From NCBI GenBank assembly GCA_003963305.1, contig RXJR01000022.1, positions 1-64,000 of the forward strand: DNA of 64,000 nucleotides, in the 5' to 3' direction. Made by a program: the position numbers and the translations under genes. The stretch comes from Candidatus Melainabacteria bacterium (GTDB lineage: Bacteria > Cyanobacteriota > Vampirovibrionia > Obscuribacterales > Obscuribacteraceae). The notes beneath the pieces were generated by a model that was not told the origin of the DNA, did no database searches, and worked only from the letters and a program-made list of their open reading frames with translations. How positions within the stretch are numbered: position 1 is the stretch's first letter; each line of letters opens with the position of its first letter. Shown piece after piece: positions 42,345 to 56,017 of the stretch.

Positions 42345-43712
42345 TTATGTTTTACTCTCCACGCGTTCTCTCAACAAAAACTGTCCTACAGGCTCAGAGG
42401 AAAATTGACCATTGTTATAGACCAACTGCCCTCGAACAAATGTTTTTTCAACTTTGCCAAATAGTTCCATGCCATCGTAAGGAGTGACCTTGTGGCGGTG
42501 GTGAATGATCGACGCATCGATTTTGGTTTTCGCCTCAGGATCCCAGACAACGATATCAGCGTCGTAACCCGGCTTCAGGTGCCCCTTAGTTTGAGTCAGT
42601 GCCAAAAACTTCGCCTGACCGTGAGTCAGCAATTTCGACAACTGGTCGACTGTTACACCACGCTCCCTCGCCTGCGTCCACACAGTCGGCAGAACGAATT
42701 GCAAGCCGGATATGCCGCCCCATGCCTTTTGCAAGTTACCCTCGTCGAGGAACTTGAGACTGGGTGAACAAGGAGAGTGGTCCGAGACGACAAAGTCGAT
42801 AGTGCCATCCAGAAGAGCAGCCCAGAGTTTTTCACGATTCTCGCGTTCGCGAATAGGCGGTGCGCATTTGAATCTCGGGTCACCGTCGGCGATTTCCTCT
42901 GCGGCGAAGGTAAGGTAGTGTGGGCAGGTTTCGACGGTAAGTTTCACGCCCGCGGCTTTAGCCTTTTTTATTGCTTCGATAGCATCTGATGACGAGAGAT
43001 GTACGATGTGAACTGGGCAATCGTGCTTGCGCCCCACTTTGATCATCAAATCAATGGCGTCGTTTTCCCAGCGTCGTGGGCGAGAGTGAAGGAAGGCATG
43101 ATATGAGGAACTGTGCTCGCTCCAGTCGTCGCAACGAGAATCGTCACATTCCATCTCGGCGTGCACAAGCAGTGGCACCCGGCGACGTGCCAGAACCGGC
43201 ATGGAAGAGTCAAGATCCTTTTCAGTCACGTTCGGGAAATCGTCAATGCCTGAGTGAATCAAGAAACATTTGAAACCACGCACGCCTGCATCGATTAAAG
43301 GCTCGAGGGAAAGAGTATTTCCCGGCACAACGCCACCATAGAAGGCACAGTCGACAGTGAGTTTACCTTTGGCCGCTGCCAGTTTTTCTTCCAGCGCGGT
43401 CAACGAAGTCGTAACCGGGTTGGAATTGAGAGGCATATCAGCAATTGTTGTTATGCCGCCCGCTGCTGCCGCTATCGTCGCCGTTTCAAACCCTTCCCAC
43501 TCGGTTCGTCCCGGCTCATTGACGTGCACATGAGAGTCGATCAGCCCCGGCATGACGACGGAATTACCCGCTTCATGGATGTGGTCGAGACCGTGACCAT
43601 CAGGAACGTCAACTATTTTAGAGATGCGCCCATCTTCTACGATCAGACAACCTTTTTTAATACCATCGGCGGTGATGATGCGGTTGCTGGAAATACCAAA
43701 TTTCGAAGCCAT
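42345..43712 (-). CDS. allB: Allantoinase
   Basis: A 455-residue amidohydrolase-superfamily enzyme opening the hydantoin ring of allantoin to allantoate. Metal ligands are in DSHVHVNEPGRTEWEGF, the carboxylated Lys is in GFKCFLIHSG, further His ligands are in LVHAEME and IVHLSS, and the last Asp is in VSDHSPC. MPLNSNPVTT is characteristic of allantoinase over dihydroorotase or dihydropyrimidinase. It lies 32 bp after malate synthase and one base before allantoicase, the second gene in the operon. Confidence 0.94.
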   Translation of the reverse strand: MASKFGISSNRIITADGIKKGCLIVEDGRISKIVDVPDGHGLDHIHEAGNSVVMPGLIDSHVHVNEPGRTEWEGFETATIAAAAGGITTIADMPLNSNPVTTSLTALEEKLAAAKGKLTVDCAFYGGVVPGNTLSLEPLIDAGVRGFKCFLIHSGIDDFPNVTEKDLDSSMPVLARRRVPLLVHAEMECDDSRCDDWSEHSSSYHAFLHSRPRRWENDAIDLMIKVGRKHDCPVHIVHLSSSDAIEAIKKAKAAGVKLTVETCPHYLTFAAEEIADGDPRFKCAPPIRERENREKLWAALLDGTIDFVVSDHSPCSPSLKFLDEGNLQKAWGGISGLQFVLPTVWTQARERGVTVDQLSKLLTHGQAKFLALTQTKGHLKPGYDADIVVWDPEAKTKIDASIIHHRHKVTPYDGMELFGKVEKTFVRGQLVYNNGQFSSEPVGQFLLRERVESKT

Positions 43713-43744
43713 ATTGAGACCTGCTAATTCAAGTATCTACACTG

Positions 43745-45322
<1,578 letters not shown>

Positions 45323-45380
45323 TTCATTCCCCCTGAGTGGCTCGGAGCGTTTTCAACGAATTGAAGTGCACGGTGATGTA

Positions 45381-45454
45381 TTGTCAGTTGCGGATTTGTG
45401 TAGAGCCTGTCTGCGGCTGCCCGACGACCGGCAGCATGAGCCGCAACTGTACAA
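45381..45454. promoter_or_regulatory. Structured element between aceB and allA
   Basis: In the 244-bp divergent region, CAGTTGCGG at 45385-45393 is the exact inverse of CCGCAACTG at 45441-45449, and the match extends to about 13 bp with one bulged base. The inside holds GCTGCC/GGCAGC (45416-45421 with 45430-45435). The right arm can also pair with TGCGGC at 45412-45417, so two structures exclude each other. It could be a bipartite operator for a repressor of both transcripts, or a switching RNA leader. Confidence 0.45.
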
Positions 45455-45566
45455 CCATGTAAGTGCCAGGTTATATTACACTCTATTCGCTTTGGATATA
45501 TTACCGAGCTGAGTCTTGCTCAAAATCGGACCAGCACAGAATTTGGCACGAGAGGAGCAGCTTGAC

Positions 45567-46091
45567 ATGTCCGAGAAATCAGCTATCCAAGCTGTGCCAA
45601 TAACGCGCGAAGCGTACGCGCCGTACGGTTCACTGATTTCCGCGGACGACTCGCTACCTTTTAGATATGCCAATATGCGCACTGCCAAGCGATTTGACCA
45701 TCTGGCGGAAGTGGTTAATCTGCGCAGCGAGACGGCCAGGCTGAATCTTTGTGTGTTCAGTTGCAGCCCCCTTGCCGAAGCGCCTCTGCAAATGAAACTA
45801 CTGGAGAAGCATCAATATTCCACGCAAGTGTTCCTGCCAATGACGAACAAGGCAAGGTTTCTGGTTATCGTCTGTCTTGGTGGTGATGAACCTGATTTGA
45901 ACACGTTGAGTTGCTTCGAGGCGACAAACGGTCAGGGAATCAGTTATAGACCGGGTGTGTGGCACTATCCGATGACAGCGATCGGCGAACCTATTGATTT
46001 TGCCTGCCTGGTTTGTGAGGACGGCTCGAAGGAAGATTGCGAGGTGCACACTTTCAAGTCACCTATTGAAATTTTTCCTGCTGACTTGTAA
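45567..46091 (+). CDS. allA: Ureidoglycolate lyase
   Basis: A 174-residue cupin-like enzyme splitting ureidoglycolate to glyoxylate and urea. Family blocks include ITREAYAPYGSLI at the start, LLEKHQYSTQVFLPM (substrate site region), FLVIVCLGGDEPDL and the histidine in GVWHYPMTAIGEPIDFACL. It is transcribed divergently from the other six genes of the pathway. The ATG at 45567 follows GAGAGGAG by nine bases; an upstream in-frame ATG would add 17 residues not seen in the family. It completes the route from urate to glyoxylate. Confidence 0.92.
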   Translation: MSEKSAIQAVPITREAYAPYGSLISADDSLPFRYANMRTAKRFDHLAEVVNLRSETARLNLCVFSCSPLAEAPLQMKLLEKHQYSTQVFLPMTNKARFLVIVCLGGDEPDLNTLSCFEATNGQGISYRPGVWHYPMTAIGEPIDFACLVCEDGSKEDCEVHTFKSPIEIFPADL

Positions 46092-46215
46092 TTTCGACCG
46101 ACTGTGTGAAATCAGTTATTTATTCAGAAAACCAGTTCAGATCAACAATCTGGAGTTGTCAGGCTTATAAACTTACTCTGTTGCACAGGATGTGCCCAAC
46201 TGTGGAGGAATGCGC

Positions 46216-47802
46216 GTGCGTAGTTTTGTACGTTTGGCTTTGAGTGTGGTCGCACTGGGAGCACTTGGGCAGCCCTTTTTGCCGCCGGCTTTCGGCGAAG
46301 TTAGCTGCGTAGCGGAAGTGAAATCGGCGCCTGCCCACCCCGGCATAATTTTTCATCAGTACTATCTTGGATGTTTGTCGCACGCTTCTTACCTGATTGG
46401 CGACGAAGCCACGAAAACTGCAGTGATAGTCGATCCCCAGAGAGACATCGACCAGTACATAGCAGACGCCGAGAAGAACGGGCTCAAAATCACCCATGTA
46501 TTTTTGACGCATGTTCACGCTGATTTCGTAGCTGGGCATCTTGAGCTTCAACGCAAGACCGGTGCAAAAATTTGCCTCGGTGCTAAAACAAGCGCCACCT
46601 ACAAATTTACGGGCTTCAAAGACGGCGATACGCTTGATGTAGGCAACGTGCGATTCAAAGTTCTGGAGACCCCCGGACACACACCTGAGGCTATCTCTAT
46701 TCTTGTTTTCGACACGAAGAAGGACACGGCTAGGCCTTATGCGGTCTTGAGCGGCGACAGTCTTTTCATAGGCGATGTCGGTCGCCCTGACCTTTTGTCT
46801 TCAAAAGGCATCAGCGCTAAAGAGCTGGCCGAGATGGAATATGATTCTCTGCACAACAAACTCATGACCCTGCCCGACGAAACTCTCGTGTATCCAGCAC
46901 ATGGTGCCGGCTCTCTTTGCGGAAAAAATATGAGCAAAGAGACCGTCTCTACAATCGGCGAGCAGAAGCGCACAAATTACGCGCTGCAGCCGATGAGCAA
47001 AGAGAAGTTGGTGGAGCTGCTCACTAAAGATTTGCCGCCGGCGCCGAAATATTTCGCTTATGACGCAGCATTCAATTGCCAGGCGCATCCGTCCCTGGAT
47101 GAACTTTTGAAGAACCTCAAGCCTCTCAGCGTCGACGAAGCACTGAAGTTGAAGAACTCGGGCGCCTATTTGTTAGACGGACGTGAGTCAGATTCATACG
47201 CCCGGCAACATGTAGTCGACAGCGTCAACATTCCCCTCAAGGGAAGATATGCGACGTGGGCCGGCACATTCATCGATCACGAGAAACCAGTCGTAATCAT
47301 TTGTGATCCTGGTCAGGAAAAGGAAGCTGTCATGCGACTTGGGCGCATCGGACTGGACTCTGTCGCTGGTTACGTCGGCGGCGGTATCAAAGCATTCGAT
47401 GGACGAGTTGATCTCGTTAGAAATAACGAGCGTGTCACTGCACAGCAACTAGCAAAGCTTTTGCAATCAGAGAAACCACCTTATGTACTGGATGTACGCA
47501 GCCAGGGTGAGTGGCAGGCTGCTCATATAGAGAACACACATCTTTTGCCGCTTAGCGACATCCTCGAGCACGTCGACACTCTGCCGAAGGACAAAGAAAT
47601 AATCATCATGTGTGCCTCCGGAAATCGCTCTTCCACTGCAGCGAGTCTGTTGAGTCAGCATGGTGTCACACACCTCACCGATCTGCGCGGCGGCATTGAA
47701 GGCTGGCAAGTTGAGAAGCTGCCTGTGATCTCACAAACTTCAACTGACGGCAATGATAAGTCGGGCAACTTGAAGCCAAATTGCAGTGTGAAGACTCAGT
47801 GA
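46216..47802 (+). CDS. Exported persulfide dioxygenase-rhodanese fusion (CstB-like)
   Basis: A protein of about 528 residues with a signal peptide (FVRLALSVVALGALGQPFLPPAFG). A metallo-beta-lactamase domain (about 45-290) has THVHADFVAGH (His99, His101, Asp103), TPGHTPEA, SGDSLFIGDVGRPDL and YPAHGAG, the set of iron ligands found in ETHE1/persulfide dioxygenases. Two rhodanese domains follow. The first has Cys363 in an altered loop (CDPGQE); the second has Cys466 in a normal loop (CASGNRS). This MBL-rhodanese-rhodanese order is that of staphylococcal CstB, which oxidises low-molecular-weight persulfides to sulfite or thiosulfate. The export signal is unusual. GTG at 46216 has GGAGG seven bases before it. 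It leads the sulfite dehydrogenase-oxidase gene set. Confidence 0.85.
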   Translation: MRSFVRLALSVVALGALGQPFLPPAFGEVSCVAEVKSAPAHPGIIFHQYYLGCLSHASYLIGDEATKTAVIVDPQRDIDQYIADAEKNGLKITHVFLTHVHADFVAGHLELQRKTGAKICLGAKTSATYKFTGFKDGDTLDVGNVRFKVLETPGHTPEAISILVFDTKKDTARPYAVLSGDSLFIGDVGRPDLLSSKGISAKELAEMEYDSLHNKLMTLPDETLVYPAHGAGSLCGKNMSKETVSTIGEQKRTNYALQPMSKEKLVELLTKDLPPAPKYFAYDAAFNCQAHPSLDELLKNLKPLSVDEALKLKNSGAYLLDGRESDSYARQHVVDSVNIPLKGRYATWAGTFIDHEKPVVIICDPGQEKEAVMRLGRIGLDSVAGYVGGGIKAFDGRVDLVRNNERVTAQQLAKLLQSEKPPYVLDVRSQGEWQAAHIENTHLLPLSDILEHVDTLPKDKEIIIMCASGNRSSTAASLLSQHGVTHLTDLRGGIEGWQVEKLPVISQTSTDGNDKSGNLKPNCSVKTQ

Positions 47803-47810
47803 TTTAGTCG

Positions 47811-49064
47811 ATGATTTTCAATCCGAAAGAGTTGCCACCCTCGCATGAACTAAATGATCCCGTCAGTCGCAGGCGTTTTTTGCAATTCGCTTCGGCTGCC
47901 GCTCTGTCTGGTCTTCTAGGAGCCTGTCACAGACAAGATCAAAGTGAAAACTTCATTACCCTGCCGCCTGGTCAGACTGTAGCTCGTTTTCCTGAAAAGA
48001 CCGAGCTCATTCTGTTGACCGATCGACCGCCCCAGCTCGAAACGCCCCTGCACTACTTTCGGGAGGACCTGACCCCGAATGATGCCTTCTTCGTGCGATG
48101 GCACTATGAAGGTATCCCGACTTTCATCGATCTGCGTCAGTTCAGGTTAGAAGTGGGCGGACACGTAAATAAACCGCTCACTCTCAGTTTGACCGACTTG
48201 AAAAAGCAGTACGAGCCGGCCACTGTTGTAGCAGTGAATCAGTGTTCAGGCAATTCTCGCAGTTCGTTTCAGCCGCGCGTGCCGGGCGGGCAGTGGCGCA
48301 ATGGTGCAATGGGGAACGCTCGATGGACAGGTATCCGCCTTAAAGACCTTTTGCAAGCTGCCGGTATTAAGGGTGGTGCAGTAGAAGTCAGCTTCGCCGG
48401 TCTCGACGAAGCACCGCTCTTCAATATGCACAAATTCGTCAAAGCACTATCCATCGACCACGCAATGAGCGACGAGGTCCTGGTTGCTTACGAGATGAAT
48501 GAGAAACCACTGCCCATGCTGAATGGATTTCCGCTGCGACTGGTGGTGCCTGGATGGTATGCCACTTACTGGGTAAAGTCTTTGAAATCAATACAGGTCT
48601 TGCCCCAGAAATTTCAGGGCTTCTGGATGGACAAGGCATACAGAATTCCAAAAAACGAAGACGCTGTCGAAACGCCGGAGAACCTGGCCAAGGATACCGT
48701 ACCAATCAACAAAATGAATGTGCGCTCCTTGATCGTCAGCCCTGATGTGAATGAGGTGGTGCGTGTGGGAAGACCTTGCGAAGTGCAGGGAATCGCATTC
48801 GATTCCGGCTCAGGGATAAAGAAAGTGGAAGTCTCAACAGACGAAGGTAAAACTTGGCAGACAGCTCAGCTGGATTCGGATAAGCTGGGCAACTTTTCAT
48901 TCAGACGGTTTCGCATGAGCTGGACACCGCCAGGACCGGGGACTCATGCACTGATGTCACGGGCCTACAGCAACGATGGAAAATTTCAGCGCTCATTCGA
49001 CCAGTGGAATAAGAGCGGCTATATGCGTAATGTCATTGAACGCTGGGAGGTCGCTGTTATCTAA
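47811..49064 (+). CDS. sorA: Sulfite dehydrogenase, molybdopterin subunit (SorA-type)
   Basis: A 417-residue member of the sulfite oxidase family that oxidises sulfite to sulfate at a molybdenum cofactor. It has a twin-arginine signal (SRRRFLQFASAAALSGLLGAC) ending in a possible lipobox, so it is exported folded and may be lipid-anchored. The Mo-binding Cys145 is in NQCSGNSRS. NARWTGIRLKDLL and PLPMLNGFPLRLVVPGWYATYWVKSL are family blocks. A C-terminal Ig-like dimerisation domain (about 300-410) follows. There is no heme b5 domain, so electrons must go to an external cytochrome, encoded directly downstream with no gap. It starts eight bases after the CstB-like gene. Confidence 0.88.
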   Translation: MIFNPKELPPSHELNDPVSRRRFLQFASAAALSGLLGACHRQDQSENFITLPPGQTVARFPEKTELILLTDRPPQLETPLHYFREDLTPNDAFFVRWHYEGIPTFIDLRQFRLEVGGHVNKPLTLSLTDLKKQYEPATVVAVNQCSGNSRSSFQPRVPGGQWRNGAMGNARWTGIRLKDLLQAAGIKGGAVEVSFAGLDEAPLFNMHKFVKALSIDHAMSDEVLVAYEMNEKPLPMLNGFPLRLVVPGWYATYWVKSLKSIQVLPQKFQGFWMDKAYRIPKNEDAVETPENLAKDTVPINKMNVRSLIVSPDVNEVVRVGRPCEVQGIAFDSGSGIKKVEVSTDEGKTWQTAQLDSDKLGNFSFRRFRMSWTPPGPGTHALMSRAYSNDGKFQRSFDQWNKSGYMRNVIERWEVAVI

Positions 49065-49457
49065 GTGCCGACACCCAAGCAGATAATGTTATTAATGGGC
49101 TTTGTCCTTGTCGGTGCGCTCGTGCTCTGGCTCGGACGCGATGACTCAAAAGTGACCAATGCGTCTGACAGCGGAAAACCGACGACCTTATCTCAATCAG
49201 AAATTCACCAGATTGCCTTGCCGCACGATGATCCTGAATTTCCTGCCGCACCCGGGCGTCAGATTTTTCTATCAAGATGCACTGTTTGCCACACTCTTCG
49301 CTATGTGACGATGCAGCCTGACTTTCCCAAAAAAGTTTGGGCAAAAGAAGTTGCGAAAATGATCAACACATATGGTGCTCATATCTCAGGTGAGGAAGCC
49401 CGACAGATTACGGACTACCTGGCTGCTGTAAAAGGCTCTGAGGGAGCGAGCAAGTGA
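49065..49457 (+). CDS. sorB: Monoheme cytochrome c subunit of sulfite dehydrogenase (SorB-like)
   Basis: A 130-residue protein with an N-terminal membrane anchor or uncleaved signal (IMLLMGFVLVGALVLWLG) and one heme-binding motif CTVCH at residues 72-76. The C-terminal helix region EEARQITDYLAAV is typical of small class I cytochromes; Met76-region ligands cannot be assigned with certainty. GTG directly follows the sorA stop and its own stop overlaps the oxidase gene start by four bases (GTGA). That packing makes it the likely electron carrier between the two. SorB is the general family name for such partners; overall similarity is low beyond the heme motif. Confidence 0.8.
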   Translation: MPTPKQIMLLMGFVLVGALVLWLGRDDSKVTNASDSGKPTTLSQSEIHQIALPHDDPEFPAAPGRQIFLSRCTVCHTLRYVTMQPDFPKKVWAKEVAKMINTYGAHISGEEARQITDYLAAVKGSEGASK

Positions 49458-52111
49458 CTGAGAACGCGCAAACCAAAGCAGATAGCAGCGCTCCACAATT
49501 GTGTGGCGGATTGATCAGGGCACATGCCTTCGCAGCCCTGATTACACTCGTTCTGTCAGCGCTTTTCGGGCTCTTTGTTTCAATCAAAATGCACCACCCT
49601 GATTTTGCCGGCAACGATGCCTGGCTTACATGGGGCAGACTGCGTTACAACCACACCCAGGGAATCTTTTTTGGTTGGCTCGGAAACGCTTTCCTGATGT
49701 TTCTTTATTACGCGGTGCCCAAACTGGCATTCCGGCCCATTACCAGCAGGCACCTGGGCTGGTGCCTGTTTGCACTATGGAATTTTGCTGTTGTTTTGCC
49801 TGGCTGGCTGCTTGTGCTTGCTGGATTCAGCCAATCGATAGAGTGGGGAGAGTTTCCGCTTGTAGTCGATGCCTTCGTTGTCATCGCTTTTGTGCTGATG
49901 ATCATTCAATTCGCGTTGCCGCTCCTGAGAGCAAAACTCTCGCATCTGTATGTATCAGGCTGGTACATTCTAGGTTCGCTCATCTTCACTGCCCTTGCCT
50001 ATCCAGTGGGAAATATAGCTCCACAGCTCTTGCCCGGCGCCCAAGGCGCCGCTTTCAGCGGCTTATGGATTCACGATGCAGTCGGACTTTACGTGACTCC
50101 GCTGGCTCTTGCTATTGCCTATCTGGTAATCCCTTTGTCGACAAAAAAGCCAATTCACAGCCATTTTCTTTCAATGATCGGGTTCTGGATTCTCTTTTTC
50201 GTTTATCCACTCAACGGCACGCACCATTACATATATTCGGCAATCCCTATGGATGCTCAGAAAGGTGCCATCGCCGCTTCGGTCTACCTGGGGCTGGATG
50301 TGATTATTGTGGTCACGAATCTGCTTTTGTCACTGAAAGGTTCCGGGCAAACAATCAAAGAGAATTTGCCCCTGCGATTCGTCTGGATGGGCACCATCCT
50401 TTATCTGATTGTCAGTCTGCAAGGCTCACTGCAAGCCTTGATGCCCTTGAACAAGCTGCTGCATTTCAGCGACTGGGTAATTGGACATTCGCATCTGGCA
50501 ATGCTCGGCTTCGCTTCATTCACCGCAATTGGTGGCATCGCTCATGTCTGGCAGCGTCTGCCGGGCGTACGATTCAACAACGGTGCGCTGGTCTGGTGTT
50601 ACTGGTCACTGCTTGCCGGTCTGGTGGGCATGTTCTCGATCCTGACCGTGGCTGGTCTGGTTGAATCTCATATCTGGCAGAGTTCGCTGCCATGGCTCGA
50701 TTCGATAAGAACCGTGCGCAGTTACTGGGTGGCTCGATCTATAGCGTCGATTCCTGTATTTCTGGCTTTCGCTCTCTTGTTGGCGGCCATGACGACAGGC
50801 GAAGTGGTACAGGAATCGCAGTCGACCGACGGCAGTGCGCCCTCTTTCAAAGATGGCGAGAGCTCAGAACGCGGCAGTAAGGCACTCAATATGGCTTATC
50901 TCTCTGCGTCGCTGGCCGGATTTGGCTTCTTTATCTTCTCCTTTGCTGTGCTGGGCATCCTTCCCGGTGCGGCTCTCGATAAAGAAGTGGCTCGCACTAA
51001 ACCGCAGACGATGATGCCGCCCACGAAGTCGGAAGAGAATGGACGGCTGGTCTATGCGCGTGAAGGCTGCGCTTACTGTCATACGCAACAGGTCAGGGTC
51101 GTAGAGTCAGACATCCAACGTTTCGGAGCACCTACCAAAGCCTGGGAAACCCATTATGACTATCCGCACCTCTGGGGCACCAGACGTGTCGGACCTGACC
51201 TCGCCCGCGAGTCTGGTATCAGATCGGATGACTGGCAGCTAACACATCTCTACAACCCGCGACTGGTCGTGGCAGATTCAGTAATGCCCGGCTATCCATG
51301 GTTGTTTGAGGGTAGTGCCGACAAACCTGGCAAAGAGGCAGAAGACCTTTTGCGCTATGTCAAATCGCTCGGCAGAGCCAGACAGTTGACCGGTGCAGAT
51401 AGCAATCAATTTACTTTGGCTGTGAATTGTGCCTGTCCTGACGATGTAAAGAAACTGGAGACTGATGTAACTTCGACTGATGCCAGCCCTTCTCGGGCGC
51501 GACGATCAAGCTCCAGACTGGCTATTGTTTTGCCGTCCAATCCCGAACAGCTGACCACTTACATCCGACAGGGCAAAGGCGTCTACGCTCAAAATTGCGC
51601 CACCTGTCACGGCGAACGGGGCGAAGGAAATGGTCCGGCAGCAGCGATTCTTCTGCCTCGCCCCTCCGATTTAACCGCTAGCCGTATCTCGACATCCACT
51701 CTTAGCTCGATCATCATGAACGGACTGCCGGGAACTTCCATGCCGGCCTGGCGAGACATGCCCCAGCGCGACGTAGAAAGTCTTATAGCCTTTCTTTCCA
51801 CCCTGCCTCAAAATGAGAAACCGTCTCTGACGGCGACTGCGGCCGAATTGGAGGCTGGAAAAGCATTGTTTGCCAAACAGTGCGTCTCTTGCCATGGTAG
51901 CGCCGGTGATGGCACAGGACCAGCAGCCGGAGCCATGGCACGTTGCCCGACCAATTTTCATGAGGTGCAACCTACTTTCGCTGATGCCATGAAAGACATC
52001 GAGGCAGGTGTCGCGGGAACCGGCATGCCTTCATGGGGAAAACAATTGACTGAAACGGAGCGGCTCTATCTGGCTCACTATGTTCGCTCCCTCTATGACG
52101 GAGGTCAGTGA
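49454..52111 (+). CDS. Fused cbb3-type cytochrome c oxidase CcoN-CcoO-CcoP-like
   Basis: An 885-residue single polypeptide. Residues 1 to about 455 are a CcoN-type heme-copper core. Heme b ligand His67 (RYNHTQG) is present, as are CuB ligands His207 (IHDAVG) and His257/His258 (GTHHY), the cross-linking Tyr261 characteristic of C-type oxidases, and His345/His347 (IGHSHL). A further membrane helix (about 480-510) leads to a CcoO domain with CAYCH at 539 and the YDYPHLWGTRRVGPDLAR and SVMPGYPWL blocks. After a Ser/Arg linker come two CcoP-like hemes, CATCH at 715 and CVSCH at 810. It reduces O2 to water with electrons from cytochrome c. Separate ccoN, ccoO and ccoP are the rule, so this triple fusion is the notable feature. 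The start is GTG. Confidence 0.88.
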   Translation: MTENAQTKADSSAPQLCGGLIRAHAFAALITLVLSALFGLFVSIKMHHPDFAGNDAWLTWGRLRYNHTQGIFFGWLGNAFLMFLYYAVPKLAFRPITSRHLGWCLFALWNFAVVLPGWLLVLAGFSQSIEWGEFPLVVDAFVVIAFVLMIIQFALPLLRAKLSHLYVSGWYILGSLIFTALAYPVGNIAPQLLPGAQGAAFSGLWIHDAVGLYVTPLALAIAYLVIPLSTKKPIHSHFLSMIGFWILFFVYPLNGTHHYIYSAIPMDAQKGAIAASVYLGLDVIIVVTNLLLSLKGSGQTIKENLPLRFVWMGTILYLIVSLQGSLQALMPLNKLLHFSDWVIGHSHLAMLGFASFTAIGGIAHVWQRLPGVRFNNGALVWCYWSLLAGLVGMFSILTVAGLVESHIWQSSLPWLDSIRTVRSYWVARSIASIPVFLAFALLLAAMTTGEVVQESQSTDGSAPSFKDGESSERGSKALNMAYLSASLAGFGFFIFSFAVLGILPGAALDKEVARTKPQTMMPPTKSEENGRLVYAREGCAYCHTQQVRVVESDIQRFGAPTKAWETHYDYPHLWGTRRVGPDLARESGIRSDDWQLTHLYNPRLVVADSVMPGYPWLFEGSADKPGKEAEDLLRYVKSLGRARQLTGADSNQFTLAVNCACPDDVKKLETDVTSTDASPSRARRSSSRLAIVLPSNPEQLTTYIRQGKGVYAQNCATCHGERGEGNGPAAAILLPRPSDLTASRISTSTLSSIIMNGLPGTSMPAWRDMPQRDVESLIAFLSTLPQNEKPSLTATAAELEAGKALFAKQCVSCHGSAGDGTGPAAGAMARCPTNFHEVQPTFADAMKDIEAGVAGTGMPSWGKQLTETERLYLAHYVRSLYDGGQ

Positions 52112-52114
52112 GTA

Positions 52115-52261
52115 ATGTTATTGCAATTCGCACTGATCGTCATGACTGGAATAGTGGCACTGTTCGTATTCGCCTGGGCACGCTCCCCTGCGTTGCGGCG
52201 AGCCCTGGAGGAACCCAAATACAGCATTCTGGAAAACGAGACTAGATCAGACGACCACTGA
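52115..52261 (+). CDS. ccoS: CcoS-like cbb3 oxidase maturation protein (48 aa)
   Basis: A short gene three bases after the oxidase stop. GGAGGT sits nine bases before its ATG, inside the end of the oxidase gene. The product has one membrane helix (residues 2-20, LLQFALIVMTGIVALFVFA), then WARS, and then ALEEPKYSILENE. That matches the CcoS/FixS pattern of one helix, (F)W...SG.(F/Y)DDLEGPA..IL.(D/E)(D/E). CcoS is needed for copper and heme b insertion into CcoN. The identification rests on size, topology, motif and position. No CcoG, CcoH or CcoI is in the window. A 160-bp gap without a gene follows. Confidence 0.78.
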   Translation: MLLQFALIVMTGIVALFVFAWARSPALRRALEEPKYSILENETRSDDH

Positions 52262-52421: not shown

Positions 52422-54257
52422 ATGAATCTGAAAATTTGGCAGAAAATCCTGCTGATCGTATCCCTGCCGGTAATCTTCGAAATCGTCTTCGTTGCCACAT
52501 TGGCGACTTTACTTTTACAGACTGAGCAACTGTCGGATCGTTTTGAGACGTCAAAGTCCGCTCTTGTCAAGTTTCATGCCGCGCAGGAAGCGTTGATTCA
52601 AGCGACTTTTTCGCTGACTAACATCAATAAGCTCACAGAGCAGGAGTTCTCAAGAGAGTTTGATGATCTGCGTGAGAATTTGCGCAATTTCCATAAATCA
52701 TTAGATATGACTTTCGGAGTTCGCCCCGAACTCAAAGATGCACTCGAACCAGTTCCTGATTTGATTCATGGTGGCGAGAATCTCATCGATCGCATCAAGA
52801 AAATGCTGCGCGGTTCGCCCGATGAACGAGCGGATATGCGCAGACAGCTTGAAGCGTCCATGATCATTCTTGTGCTCAACATGAAACCGGTCTCGGATCG
52901 AGTCGCTCAAGCTGAGTATTCAATGCATGTGAACGCTCCAGCAGAGCTTGCCGCTCAGCGTAACGCCGTAATGATTGCAATTGGAATGGGACTGATCGTC
53001 AGTCTCATTATTTCAACAGGAGCGGGAGCACTCTTTTTTCGCAACGTCGCCAGGCGATTTCGTATTATTGAAGAAAATGCGCAGCGAGTCGCACTTGGGC
53101 AGCAGCTACAAGCACCACTCAACGATGATGACGAAATTGGAGAACTTGATGCTGCTTTGCACGAAGCAGCTAATTTGATCGAAGATGCGAGGAAAAAGGA
53201 GTTTGCCATCTTAGAGCAATCTGTCGACGTGCTCTGCTCGCTCGATAGAAGGCTGCGCATTGTCGATGTTGGAGCTTCTGTCTCCCGAGCCTGGAAATAC
53301 ACGCCCGATGAATTGATCGGTCGGTCTGTGCTGACGCTTGTGCCTGAGCTGGAGCGCACGAGACTGACCACGCTTTTGCTGGAGAACATGGCTTCAGAGA
53401 AAGAATTTGAGTTCGAATGCCCGCTGCGCACTGGTAATGGCAACATCAGAGACATTCTCTGGAAAACTAGTTGGATTCAAGCTGACAAAATCTTTTATTG
53501 CGTCGCTCATGATGTCACTGAAAGGCGAGCACTGGCCAGGCAGAAACAACAGCTCATCTCTGTGGCCGGGCACGATTTGAGAACGCCGCTGACATCGGTT
53601 TCGAGCACTTTTTCTTTGATTACGGAAGGAGCGCGGGGCGAAATTAGCGAAAAGGCGCAAAAGGAGCTGACCAAGGCCAGCCAGAGCCTGGAGCGACTGA
53701 TGGAACTGGTAAGAGATCTGCTGGATCTCGAGAAACTGGACGCCGGAAAAATGGTGCTGGAATTTAAGAGCGTGAGCGCGCTCGATGTTTGCAGCGCTGC
53801 AATCGATTCACTCAATACTCTGGCGCAGAAACTCAATGTAAAAATTCAACCACCGTGGCAAGACGCTCTTATGCTCGGCGATGAACGGCGTCTTGTGCAA
53901 ATCATGATCAATTTCCTTTCCAACGCAGTCAAGTTTTCGCCGCGTGGCGGCACAGTCACAGTTGCCATCAAAGGCGGTGACGATTTTGTCGAGATGAGTG
54001 TAGCCGACCAGGGTCCCGGCATTCCCGCAGCCGACAGAGAGATGATTTTCGAGAAGTTCCATCAATCGAAAGCCGTAACATCAGCGGCGCCTATCAAGAG
54101 CACCGGATTGGGACTGGCAATTGCAAAGGTATTGACCGAAGGGCACAACGGCACTATCGGCGTCGAAAGCGAAGTCGGCAAAGGAACGAGATTTTTCGTC
54201 AGGATTCCAACCTTCAGAGAGAATTACAGCTCAATGGAGATAGAAGAAGGGTCATGA
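52422..54257 (+). CDS. Membrane sensor histidine kinase, copy 1 (HAMP-PAS-HisKA)
   Basis: A 611-residue kinase. The first helix is at about 5-30, with a periplasmic helical domain of about 145 residues and a second helix at about 180-208. A HAMP linker (about 208-258), a PAS domain (about 260-370, VLCSLDRRLRIVDVG...) and the catalytic part follow. The phosphoacceptor is His384 in AGHDLRTPLTS. The ATP domain has NFLSNAVKFSP, DQGPGIP and GLGLAI. The periplasmic part is coiled-coil like and holds no known ligand domain. It overlaps copy 2 by four bases and follows the oxidase gene set by 160 bp, so regulation of, or response to, respiration is conceivable. No response regulator is adjacent. Confidence 0.92.
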   Translation: MNLKIWQKILLIVSLPVIFEIVFVATLATLLLQTEQLSDRFETSKSALVKFHAAQEALIQATFSLTNINKLTEQEFSREFDDLRENLRNFHKSLDMTFGVRPELKDALEPVPDLIHGGENLIDRIKKMLRGSPDERADMRRQLEASMIILVLNMKPVSDRVAQAEYSMHVNAPAELAAQRNAVMIAIGMGLIVSLIISTGAGALFFRNVARRFRIIEENAQRVALGQQLQAPLNDDDEIGELDAALHEAANLIEDARKKEFAILEQSVDVLCSLDRRLRIVDVGASVSRAWKYTPDELIGRSVLTLVPELERTRLTTLLLENMASEKEFEFECPLRTGNGNIRDILWKTSWIQADKIFYCVAHDVTERRALARQKQQLISVAGHDLRTPLTSVSSTFSLITEGARGEISEKAQKELTKASQSLERLMELVRDLLDLEKLDAGKMVLEFKSVSALDVCSAAIDSLNTLAQKLNVKIQPPWQDALMLGDERRLVQIMINFLSNAVKFSPRGGTVTVAIKGGDDFVEMSVADQGPGIPAADREMIFEKFHQSKAVTSAAPIKSTGLGLAIAKVLTEGHNGTIGVESEVGKGTRFFVRIPTFRENYSSMEIEEGS

Positions 54258-56017
54258 AACTTACCACACAAGCTTTCATCGTCATCTTCTGCCCGGTGGC
54301 TTTTCAGCTGCTCCTCGTGGCTACATTACTGATTCTCATCGCGCAAGCACAGCAAGATGCTGAACGCAACATTCACTCGGAATCAGTCATGAATGAATGC
54401 AATCTGATCGTCATGCGCGTATTCGAAGGTGTCGGTGCCCTGGCTATGCTGCATAAACAGCAAGCGTCACTCCTCACGCCTTCAGTAGGCGAGGCCAAAG
54501 ATGCTTTTCAAGCACAGGTTGATAAAGTGCACGATCTGATCGTGAACGATCCCCTGCAAGCCGACAATGACGCGCTCTTTATTCGAGAAGCTCAAGGTGT
54601 AGCTGACCTGACCGAAAAGATTCATCCCCACGGCACATACGATAGCTCAACAGCAGCCAGGCATCTGCTTGTCGCAATATCGCGCATTATCCAGACCGAA
54701 GGTCAAAAGATGCAGGTGGCTACAAAAGTAAAGGAAGATAGACGCAATCTGGCAAAAGTAGTGCTTATTTCTTTTGCGGCCTTTGGCATCGTCGTAAGCG
54801 CTGTAGTGGCGATTGTTTGCGCTCTCAGATTGAAGAGAATGATTGCCCACATGACCGAAAACGCAGGGCGCTTCGCTCGTCGCGAACCGCTCGAGCCGCC
54901 GCTTGAGGGATCCGACGAGGTAGCGCGGGTCGATCAGAACATTCATGCAATGGATGTTGCCATCGAAGAAATTTTGACAAAGGCACGCAACTTGATCGAT
55001 AACGCTGCCGACCTGGTGTGCTCGGTAGACAGAGATGGATACTTCCTGCGCGTCAATCGTTTCTGCCGCCGATTGCTCGGGCGGGAGCCTGAAACCCTGA
55101 TAGACACACCAGTAATCGACCTTGTTATCAACGAAGACTGCGCGCTTGCCGACGAACAGATCAACAAGTCATTCGAGAGCATCCTGGGCAACCAGTTCGA
55201 ACTCAGACTCAAGTTTCTTGAAGATAGAATCGTGGACACATCGTGGTCGACATTCTATTCACGACAGGACAAAAGCTTGTTCTGTGTGGTTGCTGACGTG
55301 ACTGAGCGCAAAAACATCGAACGTTTAAAGCAAGACTTCATCGGCATGATCAGCCACGACCTGAGAACTCCGCTTATGTCTATCGCCAGTTCCATTGCAC
55401 TGGTGCAGAGCGGCGCCCTGGGCAACTGTTCCGAATCGGTGATGCGAGATCTAAATGGTGCCGAAAAAACAGTCGACAGATTAATCGCAATGATCAACGA
55501 CTTGCTTGACTTTGAAAAGATGGAAGCCGGAAAGATGCAGTTCAATATGGCTCCTGTGGAAATGGATGAGGTCATAGAGGAAGCTTTTAGAGAAGTCGAA
55601 ACTCTTGCCGGCAGCAAACGAATACGGCTGGAAACCGATGGAAGTGGTGTTGCTGTTTCAGGTGATAGAGAGAAGTTGATACAACTGCTGGTCAATTTAC
55701 TTGGCAACGCCATCCGCTACTCGCCTGAAGGCGCACCAGTGACGGTGCAGTGCCGGCAGACAAATCAGACGGCCGAGATATCCGTTAGAGATGAAGGCCC
55801 GGGTGTACCGGAAGGTTTCCACGAAAGTGTCTTTGCTCCATTCGAGAGCGCGCCCGGCAGTAAACAGACGAGCGAAGGCGGCACGGGGCTTGGTCTGGCC
55901 ATCTGTAAGCTCATTACGGAAGGGCACAATGGCGAAATCGGTGTGCGCAATCGCAAAGAACGCGGCAGCGAATTCTGGTTCAAACTTACAGCGACAAAGA
56001 AAAATGCGGCCCGTTAG
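54254..56017 (+). CDS. Membrane sensor histidine kinase, copy 2 (HAMP-PAS-HisKA)
   Basis: A 587-residue paralog of the preceding kinase with the same layout: helix at 5-30, periplasmic helical domain, helix at about 168-192, HAMP, PAS (VCSVDRDGYFLRVNRFCRRLLG) and HisKA with His368 in ISHDLRTPLMS. The ATPase boxes are NLLGNAIRYSP, DEGPGVP and GTGLGLAI. Similarity is highest in the HAMP to ATPase part, and the periplasmic regions have diverged, which suggests two sensors feeding a common or related output. ATG overlaps the stop of copy 1. Its last codons lie inside the terminator hairpin of the oppositely read tRNA gene. Confidence 0.92.
   Translation: MKLTTQAFIVIFCPVAFQLLLVATLLILIAQAQQDAERNIHSESVMNECNLIVMRVFEGVGALAMLHKQQASLLTPSVGEAKDAFQAQVDKVHDLIVNDPLQADNDALFIREAQGVADLTEKIHPHGTYDSSTAARHLLVAISRIIQTEGQKMQVATKVKEDRRNLAKVVLISFAAFGIVVSAVVAIVCALRLKRMIAHMTENAGRFARREPLEPPLEGSDEVARVDQNIHAMDVAIEEILTKARNLIDNAADLVCSVDRDGYFLRVNRFCRRLLGREPETLIDTPVIDLVINEDCALADEQINKSFESILGNQFELRLKFLEDRIVDTSWSTFYSRQDKSLFCVVADVTERKNIERLKQDFIGMISHDLRTPLMSIASSIALVQSGALGNCSESVMRDLNGAEKTVDRLIAMINDLLDFEKMEAGKMQFNMAPVEMDEVIEEAFREVETLAGSKRIRLETDGSGVAVSGDREKLIQLLVNLLGNAIRYSPEGAPVTVQCRQTNQTAEISVRDEGPGVPEGFHESVFAPFESAPGSKQTSEGGTGLGLAICKLITEGHNGEIGVRNRKERGSEFWFKLTATKKNAAR

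Follow-up and report, generated by a model that had tools for sequence, protein, structure and literature searches.

Organisation of the locus

We analysed a 64,000-nt window, the first 64,000 nt of contig RXJR01000022.1 from a Candidatus Melainabacteria genome, in which five closely packed genes on the + strand form a module that would link the oxidation of sulfite to the reduction of oxygen; all coordinates given without another prefix are positions within this window. Gene 1 (46216..47802) encodes a CstB-type persulfide dioxygenase-sulfurtransferase with a metallo-beta-lactamase domain, two rhodanese domains and an N-terminal Sec-type signal peptide, and is predicted to be periplasmic. It is followed by gene 2 (47811..49064), for the molybdenum subunit of a SorA-type sulfite dehydrogenase, in which a twin-arginine translocation (TAT) signal precedes a lipobox-like Cys (LGAC), and by gene 3 (49065..49457), for a SorB-type monohaem cytochrome c (CTVCH) with an N-terminal hydrophobic segment. 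Gene 4 (49454..52111) encodes a CcoN-CcoO-CcoP fusion of the C-family (cbb3-type) haem-copper oxygen reductases, and gene 5 (52115..52261) a 48-aa protein with a single transmembrane (TM) segment. An earlier reading of the letters and open reading frames (hereafter the sequence-only reading) had described five packed genes with gaps of 8, 0, -4 and 3 bp, and both the reading frames at these positions and the gaps were confirmed. Four of its five gene identities also stand (CstB-type, SorA, SorB and the CcoN-CcoO-CcoP fusion); the fifth, CcoS, does not, as no profile match was obtained.

An alternative ATG start for gene 1 is possible at 46210, and the GTG at 46216 is preceded 7 nt upstream by GGAGG. 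Start and stop overlap at the SorB-oxidase junction (-4), and in genus g23 the dioxygenase and SorA genes overlap as well (-35 to -41). No promoter-like or terminator-like signals above shuffled expectation were found inside the module, inverted repeats and promoter or terminator patterns at its borders did not exceed chance, and the only RNA element found was a tRNA-Asn; the five genes are presumably transcribed together. The host genome is metagenome-derived (7.48 Mb, 44 contigs, 4.7% contamination), and such figures might suggest that the operon is an assembly artefact or sits on a chimeric contig. This is extremely improbable: at least eight other genomes of the family carry the same operon, with proteins 57–83% identical, and a contig artefact was ruled out on that ground.

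The sulfite dehydrogenase

SorA contains Oxidored_molyb and Mo-co dimer domains. Its best-scoring family is NF052245, at 522 bits against a cut-off of 600, and that of SorB is NF052246, at 75 bits against a cut-off of 93; the module SorAs of P. graminis (471 bits) and Pan216 (513 bits) likewise fall below the NF052245 cut-off. Alignment with SorA of Starkeya novella (2BLF) runs from end to end (E 1.6e-111) and retains the Mo-Cys, the FFVR-H motif and the Tyr of AYRIP, so that the Cys, Arg/His and Tyr of the S. novella Mo-cofactor domain are all present; the position of the catalytic Tyr was confirmed with the Y236F mutant entry 2C9X. The monohaem cytochrome directly downstream aligns with S. 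novella SorB (2BLF chain B, E 3.4e-8). The two systems (2BLF/2BPB for S. novella) are alike in their catalytic and haem subunits, active-site residues and sorA-sorB order, but the window module differs in having its own terminal oxidase in the operon, tethering signals, a separate SorA clade and scores below the cut-offs.

The TAT motif followed by a lipobox-like Cys recurs in this family's module copies of SorA, which is probably lipid-anchored. SorB is probably anchored in the membrane too: by hydropathy its N-terminus is hydrophobic and has no clear cleavage site, both in the window's genus and in Planctomycetota, and several relatives have a lipobox instead. Genus g23 and Pseudomonas have one more membrane-anchored monohaem cytochrome, placed between SorB and the oxidase. 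Two SorAB loci of the same order that lack an oxidase have neither the lipobox-like Cys of SorA nor the anchor of SorB. Together with the signal peptide of gene 1, the export and tethering signals of SorA and SorB agree with the sequence-only reading in predicting that these proteins sit at the membrane's outer face. As a separate observation, a LysR regulator and an SLAC1/TDT transporter (possible sulfite efflux) adjoin SorAB in Pseudomonas, Sphingobium, Sulfitobacter and Paraburkholderia (L044:451-3783, L191:2377-4397, L193:558-2676, L196:163-2332).

The fused oxidase and its small partner

Gene 4 encodes a single 885-residue chain composed of CcoN, CcoO and the dihaem part of CcoP. Pfam identifies COX1, FixO and Cytochrome_CBB3 (two cytochrome c domains), and the protein matches the N, O and P chains of 3MK7, the Pseudomonas stutzeri enzyme. 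It has 12 TM + 1 TM segments and three haem c sites (CXXCH at residues 539, 715 and 810), which fall in the monohaem CcoO and dihaem CcoP domains. The low- and high-spin haem His, the three CuB His and the helix VII Tyr are present (H67, H345, H347, H207, H257, H258, Y251) and are conserved throughout the clade, except in a frameshifted copy from P. khorasanensis. Domains, chain matches and ligands thus all point to the fused cbb3-type oxidase that the sequence-only reading had predicted. An AlphaFold model of the fusion, built from 11 sequences, was moderate overall (predicted local distance difference test score 64.8), good for CcoN and poor for the haem linkers; it matches CcoN of 3MK7 (TMt 0.85), and the solved structures nearest to it are oxygen reductases. 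Pseudomonas and Paraburkholderia have this protein in two pieces, CcoN and CcoOP.

The proteins from the window and from P. stutzeri share the CcoN fold, the haem and CuB ligands, the helix VII Tyr and the one plus two haem c domains. The window differs in having three subunits in one chain, no adjoining CcoGHI, a new small protein and two substitutions: W203 and E323 of P. stutzeri CcoN, which are conserved in canonical cbb3 members without being a known strict requirement, are G and Q throughout the gene 4 clade, with Q in outgroups too. These changes, in a fold common to nitric oxide (NO) reductases, raise the question of whether the protein has lost O2 reduction or uses another substrate such as NO. 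We regard this as improbable, given that, but for one frameshifted copy, the whole clade retains Y251 and the His ligands of CuB and haem, that oxygen reductases are the nearest solved structures, and that the W-to-G change is also found in the Nitrospina oxidase (PMC3578206). Identity as an NO reductase was rejected on the helix VII Tyr and the ligands.

Nitrospina gracilis has a fused cbb3 oxidase of 954 aa, assigned to nitrite oxidation, and its genome also encodes a SorAB-type sulfite:cytochrome c oxidoreductase (PMC3578206). That protein resembles gene 4 in carrying CcoN-O-P in one gene and glycine at 203, but has extra CuB-site changes, H202 and Y208, where the window protein has S202 and D208; the paper states no linkage of the fused oxidase to SorAB (PMC3578206). 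Two side observations concern oxidases. The P. khorasanensis gene (L053:5976-8671) has THRY for THHY and has lost a CuB His, consistent with a decaying copy. In the window genome, a cluster at L038:5287-9494 (G000:C20) combines genes for a Rieske protein, a cytochrome b-like protein and a cbb3 oxidase, apparently the organism's general quinol-to-O2 chain.

The 48-aa membrane protein encoded by gene 5 is of an undescribed kind; it may be a small subunit like CcoQ, or an assembly factor. It carries the motif W..SP.LR...E.PK..L, with R28, E32 and P34 invariant (alignment A1), and its relatives follow the oxidase in most lineages examined (Obscuribacterales, Pseudomonas, Planctomycetota, Acidobacteria, Paraburkholderia and Acetobacter). 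The CcoS profile matched none of 11 members (the window protein and 10 relatives), FixQ matched 2 of the 11 weakly, and hhalign against Paracoccus CcoS gave a probability of 31%. The assignment to CcoS was therefore an error of the sequence-only reading, and CcoS identity was rejected.

Inheritance of the SorA-SorB-oxidase unit

We surveyed 50 genomes of the window's family. This type of SorA occurs in 11, and the oxidase occurs in the same 11, one copy being truncated at a contig end; the remaining 39 contain no oxidase at comparable identity, save for one 50% partial match at a contig end (G030). Co-occurrence of SorA and the oxidase gives Fisher p = 1e-9 with 10 of the 11 counted and the truncated copy left out, a value that is descriptive and not independent evidence, the genomes being related and the genes physically linked. 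Conservation of the gene order in relatives had been set beforehand as a test that could refute the proposed unit. The order is kept in the window's genus and two other genera (G001, G002, G024, G035, G350, G352-G354), one of these with the extra cytochrome before the oxidase, and the test thus did not refute the unit.

Elsewhere in the phylum the nearest oxidases are 33–37% identical. A wider scan, with one genome per species, recovered the SorA-SorB-oxidase order in four Pseudomonas records (two identical in sequence) and six Planctomycetota records, and in a Nocardioidaceae record SorA/SorB come after a related oxidase. Full-length oxidase relatives without SorAB were found in two Acidobacteria (at contig edges) and in a Paraburkholderia/Acetobacter group. 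In the tree, the SorAs of the module fall into a single clade (100/99), with the stand-alone SorAs set apart from it, and the CcoN tree matches the SorA tree in every supported group. As a module, the SorA-SorB-oxidase core is conserved in three bacterial phyla; strict co-occurrence, recurrence in other phyla and agreeing trees sustain the earlier proposal that the oxidase is tied to SorAB as an inherited unit. Separately, two of the Pseudomonas records (L043/L044), one labelled Pseudomonas poae and the other P. graminis, show 100% identity along 11,162 bp surrounding the module, pointing to recent transfer or a mislabelled assembly.

An exported dioxygenase in front of SorA

Gene 1 matches Pfam PF00753 (metallo-beta-lactamase) and two copies of PF00581 (rhodanese). 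Its nearest solved relatives, similar over the full length, are 3TP9 from Alicyclobacillus and 3R2U from S. aureus, which we take to be CstB. The Fe-site motif 99-HVHAD-103, H155 and D181 are kept, with H99, H155 and D181 assigned as Fe(II) ligands by position, and C235 and C466 match two cysteines conserved in 3R2U and 3TP9. Gene 1 therefore has the domains, ligands and both cysteines of a CstB-type enzyme; an active-site Cys in the first rhodanese domain is found only in the window copy and one paralogue, and was given no weight. It differs from the two solved proteins in being exported and in adjoining SorAB and an oxidase rather than CstA/SQR. By inspection, all nine operon dioxygenases begin with a Sec-type signal peptide; none of the about 20 family paralogues does, and these begin directly at the enzyme domain. 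The cytoplasmic location expected of CstB-type enzymes is thus not the one predicted here. Domains, iron ligands, cysteines and signal peptide agree with the exported CstB-like persulfide dioxygenase (PDO) that had been proposed. Periplasmic PDOs are reported in some sulfur oxidisers, so export alone is not unprecedented (PMC9774590).

The dioxygenase stands in front of SorA in nine family loci and is a lineage-specific addition to the module, confined to the Obscuribacterales-like family. The window genome also encodes an unexported CstB-like paralogue (C1:454097-455807; L180:6246-10085), clustered with ArsR-like and TauE-like genes; of the sulfide:quinone oxidoreductase (SQR) gene that follows it, only a brief N-terminal beginning and a stop-containing C-terminal remnant are left. 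As a side observation, plasmid pMYC1 of Mycobacterium adipatum (L094) carries a CstB-like dioxygenase gene, and in its vicinity a sulfite oxidase, TauE proteins, an SQR-like protein and a ctaD oxidase are encoded.

A proposed route from sulfite to oxygen

We read genes 2–5 as a hard-wired sulfite respiration module, with gene 1 supplying sulfite in this lineage, and give this reading a probability of about two in three. SorA, exported by TAT and probably lipid-anchored, would convert sulfite into sulfate at the outer surface of the cytoplasmic membrane. The two electrons would pass through anchored SorB, and in some relatives also through the second anchored cytochrome, to the haem c domains of the fused oxidase and on to O2, whose reduction is probably accompanied by proton pumping. 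Gene 1, with its signal peptide and first place in the operon, probably turns periplasmic sulfane sulfur (persulfide or thiosulfate) into sulfite near SorA. The individual steps are known chemistry of the component families. Dedicated sulfite-to-O2 respiration is well supported by genomics, among other things by the presence of separate general aa3 and bc-cbb3 loci in the window genome, and conversion of persulfide to sulfate by the module is plausible.

The dedicated electron path is proposed because of co-inheritance, translational coupling and tethering, and these same features bear on a different view, in which a general low-oxygen oxidase is merely co-regulated with SorAB and takes its electrons from a common cytochrome pool that SorB supplies. 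Ordinary SorAB systems have their terminal oxidase elsewhere, as in six annotated stand-alone plasmid loci that have no adjoining oxidase, and electrons from the Thermus sulfite oxidoreductase reach oxidases through a shared cytochrome c552 (PMC3561395). A common pool is nonetheless unlikely here, since SorA and the oxidase are co-inherited as clades across phyla and strictly together in the family, and the electron carriers are membrane-tethered.

Several points weigh against a hard-wired module fed by gene 1. Electrons from SorB could also reach the general cytochrome pool, and the SorA "lipobox" is a motif reading rather than predictor output. The dioxygenase is missing from the Planctomycetota and Pseudomonas modules, so the persulfide step is not essential, and one relative within the family (G033) has the module without it although the upstream contig is readable. 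CstB, moreover, is reported to turn two persulfides into thiosulfate, not sulfite (PMC9774590); because of this, delivery of sulfite by gene 1 is something that we infer. Given this distribution and this product, the earlier claim that the persulfide step is integral to the module is not supported. Nor is the proposed role in sulfide detoxification: with one query, no intact SQR of the type searched for was found in the window genome, only the C-terminal remnant.

The chances of a bolder form of the hard-wired module seem to us somewhat short of even. Here SorA, SorB and a dedicated cbb3 subfamily with a new small subunit would make up one physical, proton-pumping sulfite:oxygen oxidoreductase complex of a kind not described before. 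Planctomycetota, Pseudomonadota and non-photosynthetic Cyanobacteriota would have inherited it as a unit, and the Cyanobacteriota would have extended it to a periplasmic persulfide/thiosulfate-to-sulfate chain.

Related pairings and the substrate of gene 1

A sister oxidase group of about 50% identity is carried by Paraburkholderia and Acetobacter plasmids (L090:6176-10860 and L091:3855-10842). Its members adjoin two cytochromes, one of them SoxA/TsdA-like (PF21342 at 29.6 bits, cut-off 27; TIGR04484 at 53–62 bits, cut-off 110), with DsrE genes nearby in both and YeeE in Paraburkholderia. The locus is possibly a thiosulfate dehydrogenase with its own oxidase, and from these neighbours the gene 4 subfamily seems to swap sulfur-oxidising partners.

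This group also bears on the substrate of gene 1, which might act mainly on thiosulfate in a Sox-independent route of thiosulfate/sulfane-sulfur oxidation. The rhodanese would split thiosulfate into sulfite and an enzyme persulfide, the dioxygenase would make a second sulfite, and SorA would yield sulfate, a scheme that draws on the reversibility of rhodanese and the behaviour of PDO-rhodanese fusions. The complete CstB-type site with both conserved cysteines, periplasmic export and the SoxA/TsdA-like cytochromes, DsrE and YeeE beside the sister oxidases favour it, but CstB itself is reported to run toward thiosulfate (PMC9774590). We treat thiosulfate as a possible main substrate without preferring it; it concerns gene 1 only and is compatible with genes 2–5 as a sulfite respiration module.

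A second kind of pairing occurs on the Paraburkholderia fungorum plasmid NZ_CP099624.1 (L196:8273-15138), with the run CcoN-CcoO-cyt c-CcoI (P-type ATPase)-SorA-SorB. As in the window, SorAB lies directly beside a cbb3 oxidase, but this oxidase is about 31% identical, its SorA belongs to the stand-alone clade and the order is reversed, which marks the cluster as an independent SorAB and cbb3 pairing. It points to selection for coupling, and sulfur dehydrogenases therefore seem to have become coupled to an oxidase of their own on at least two occasions.

Relation to known systems

The component families are already known, as is fused CcoNOP from Nitrospina gracilis (PMC3578206). We found no description of SorAB with a dedicated oxidase, or of an exported CstB feeding SorAB, in the openly accessible literature, subscription journals being mostly outside the search. 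For several systems, the route by which electrons travel from bacterial sulfite dehydrogenases to oxygen is described as an unsettled question (PMC3561395), and a conserved SorAB-oxidase unit makes this route testable with one gene set. The unit could also serve as a genomic marker for sulfite respiration, would extend the energy metabolism of the non-photosynthetic relatives of cyanobacteria by a sulfur-based route, and offers a case of a dioxygenase with cytoplasmic paralogues apparently relocated outside to feed a module.

Flanking genes

Upstream, at 42345-46091, genes for allantoinase, malate synthase A and ureidoglycolate lyase lie side by side, a cluster for ureide (purine) breakdown to malate that adjoins the module. 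Directly downstream are two tandem PAS histidine kinases (52422-56017) with a 4-bp overlap. We rejected them as members of the module, as they do not adjoin it in G001.

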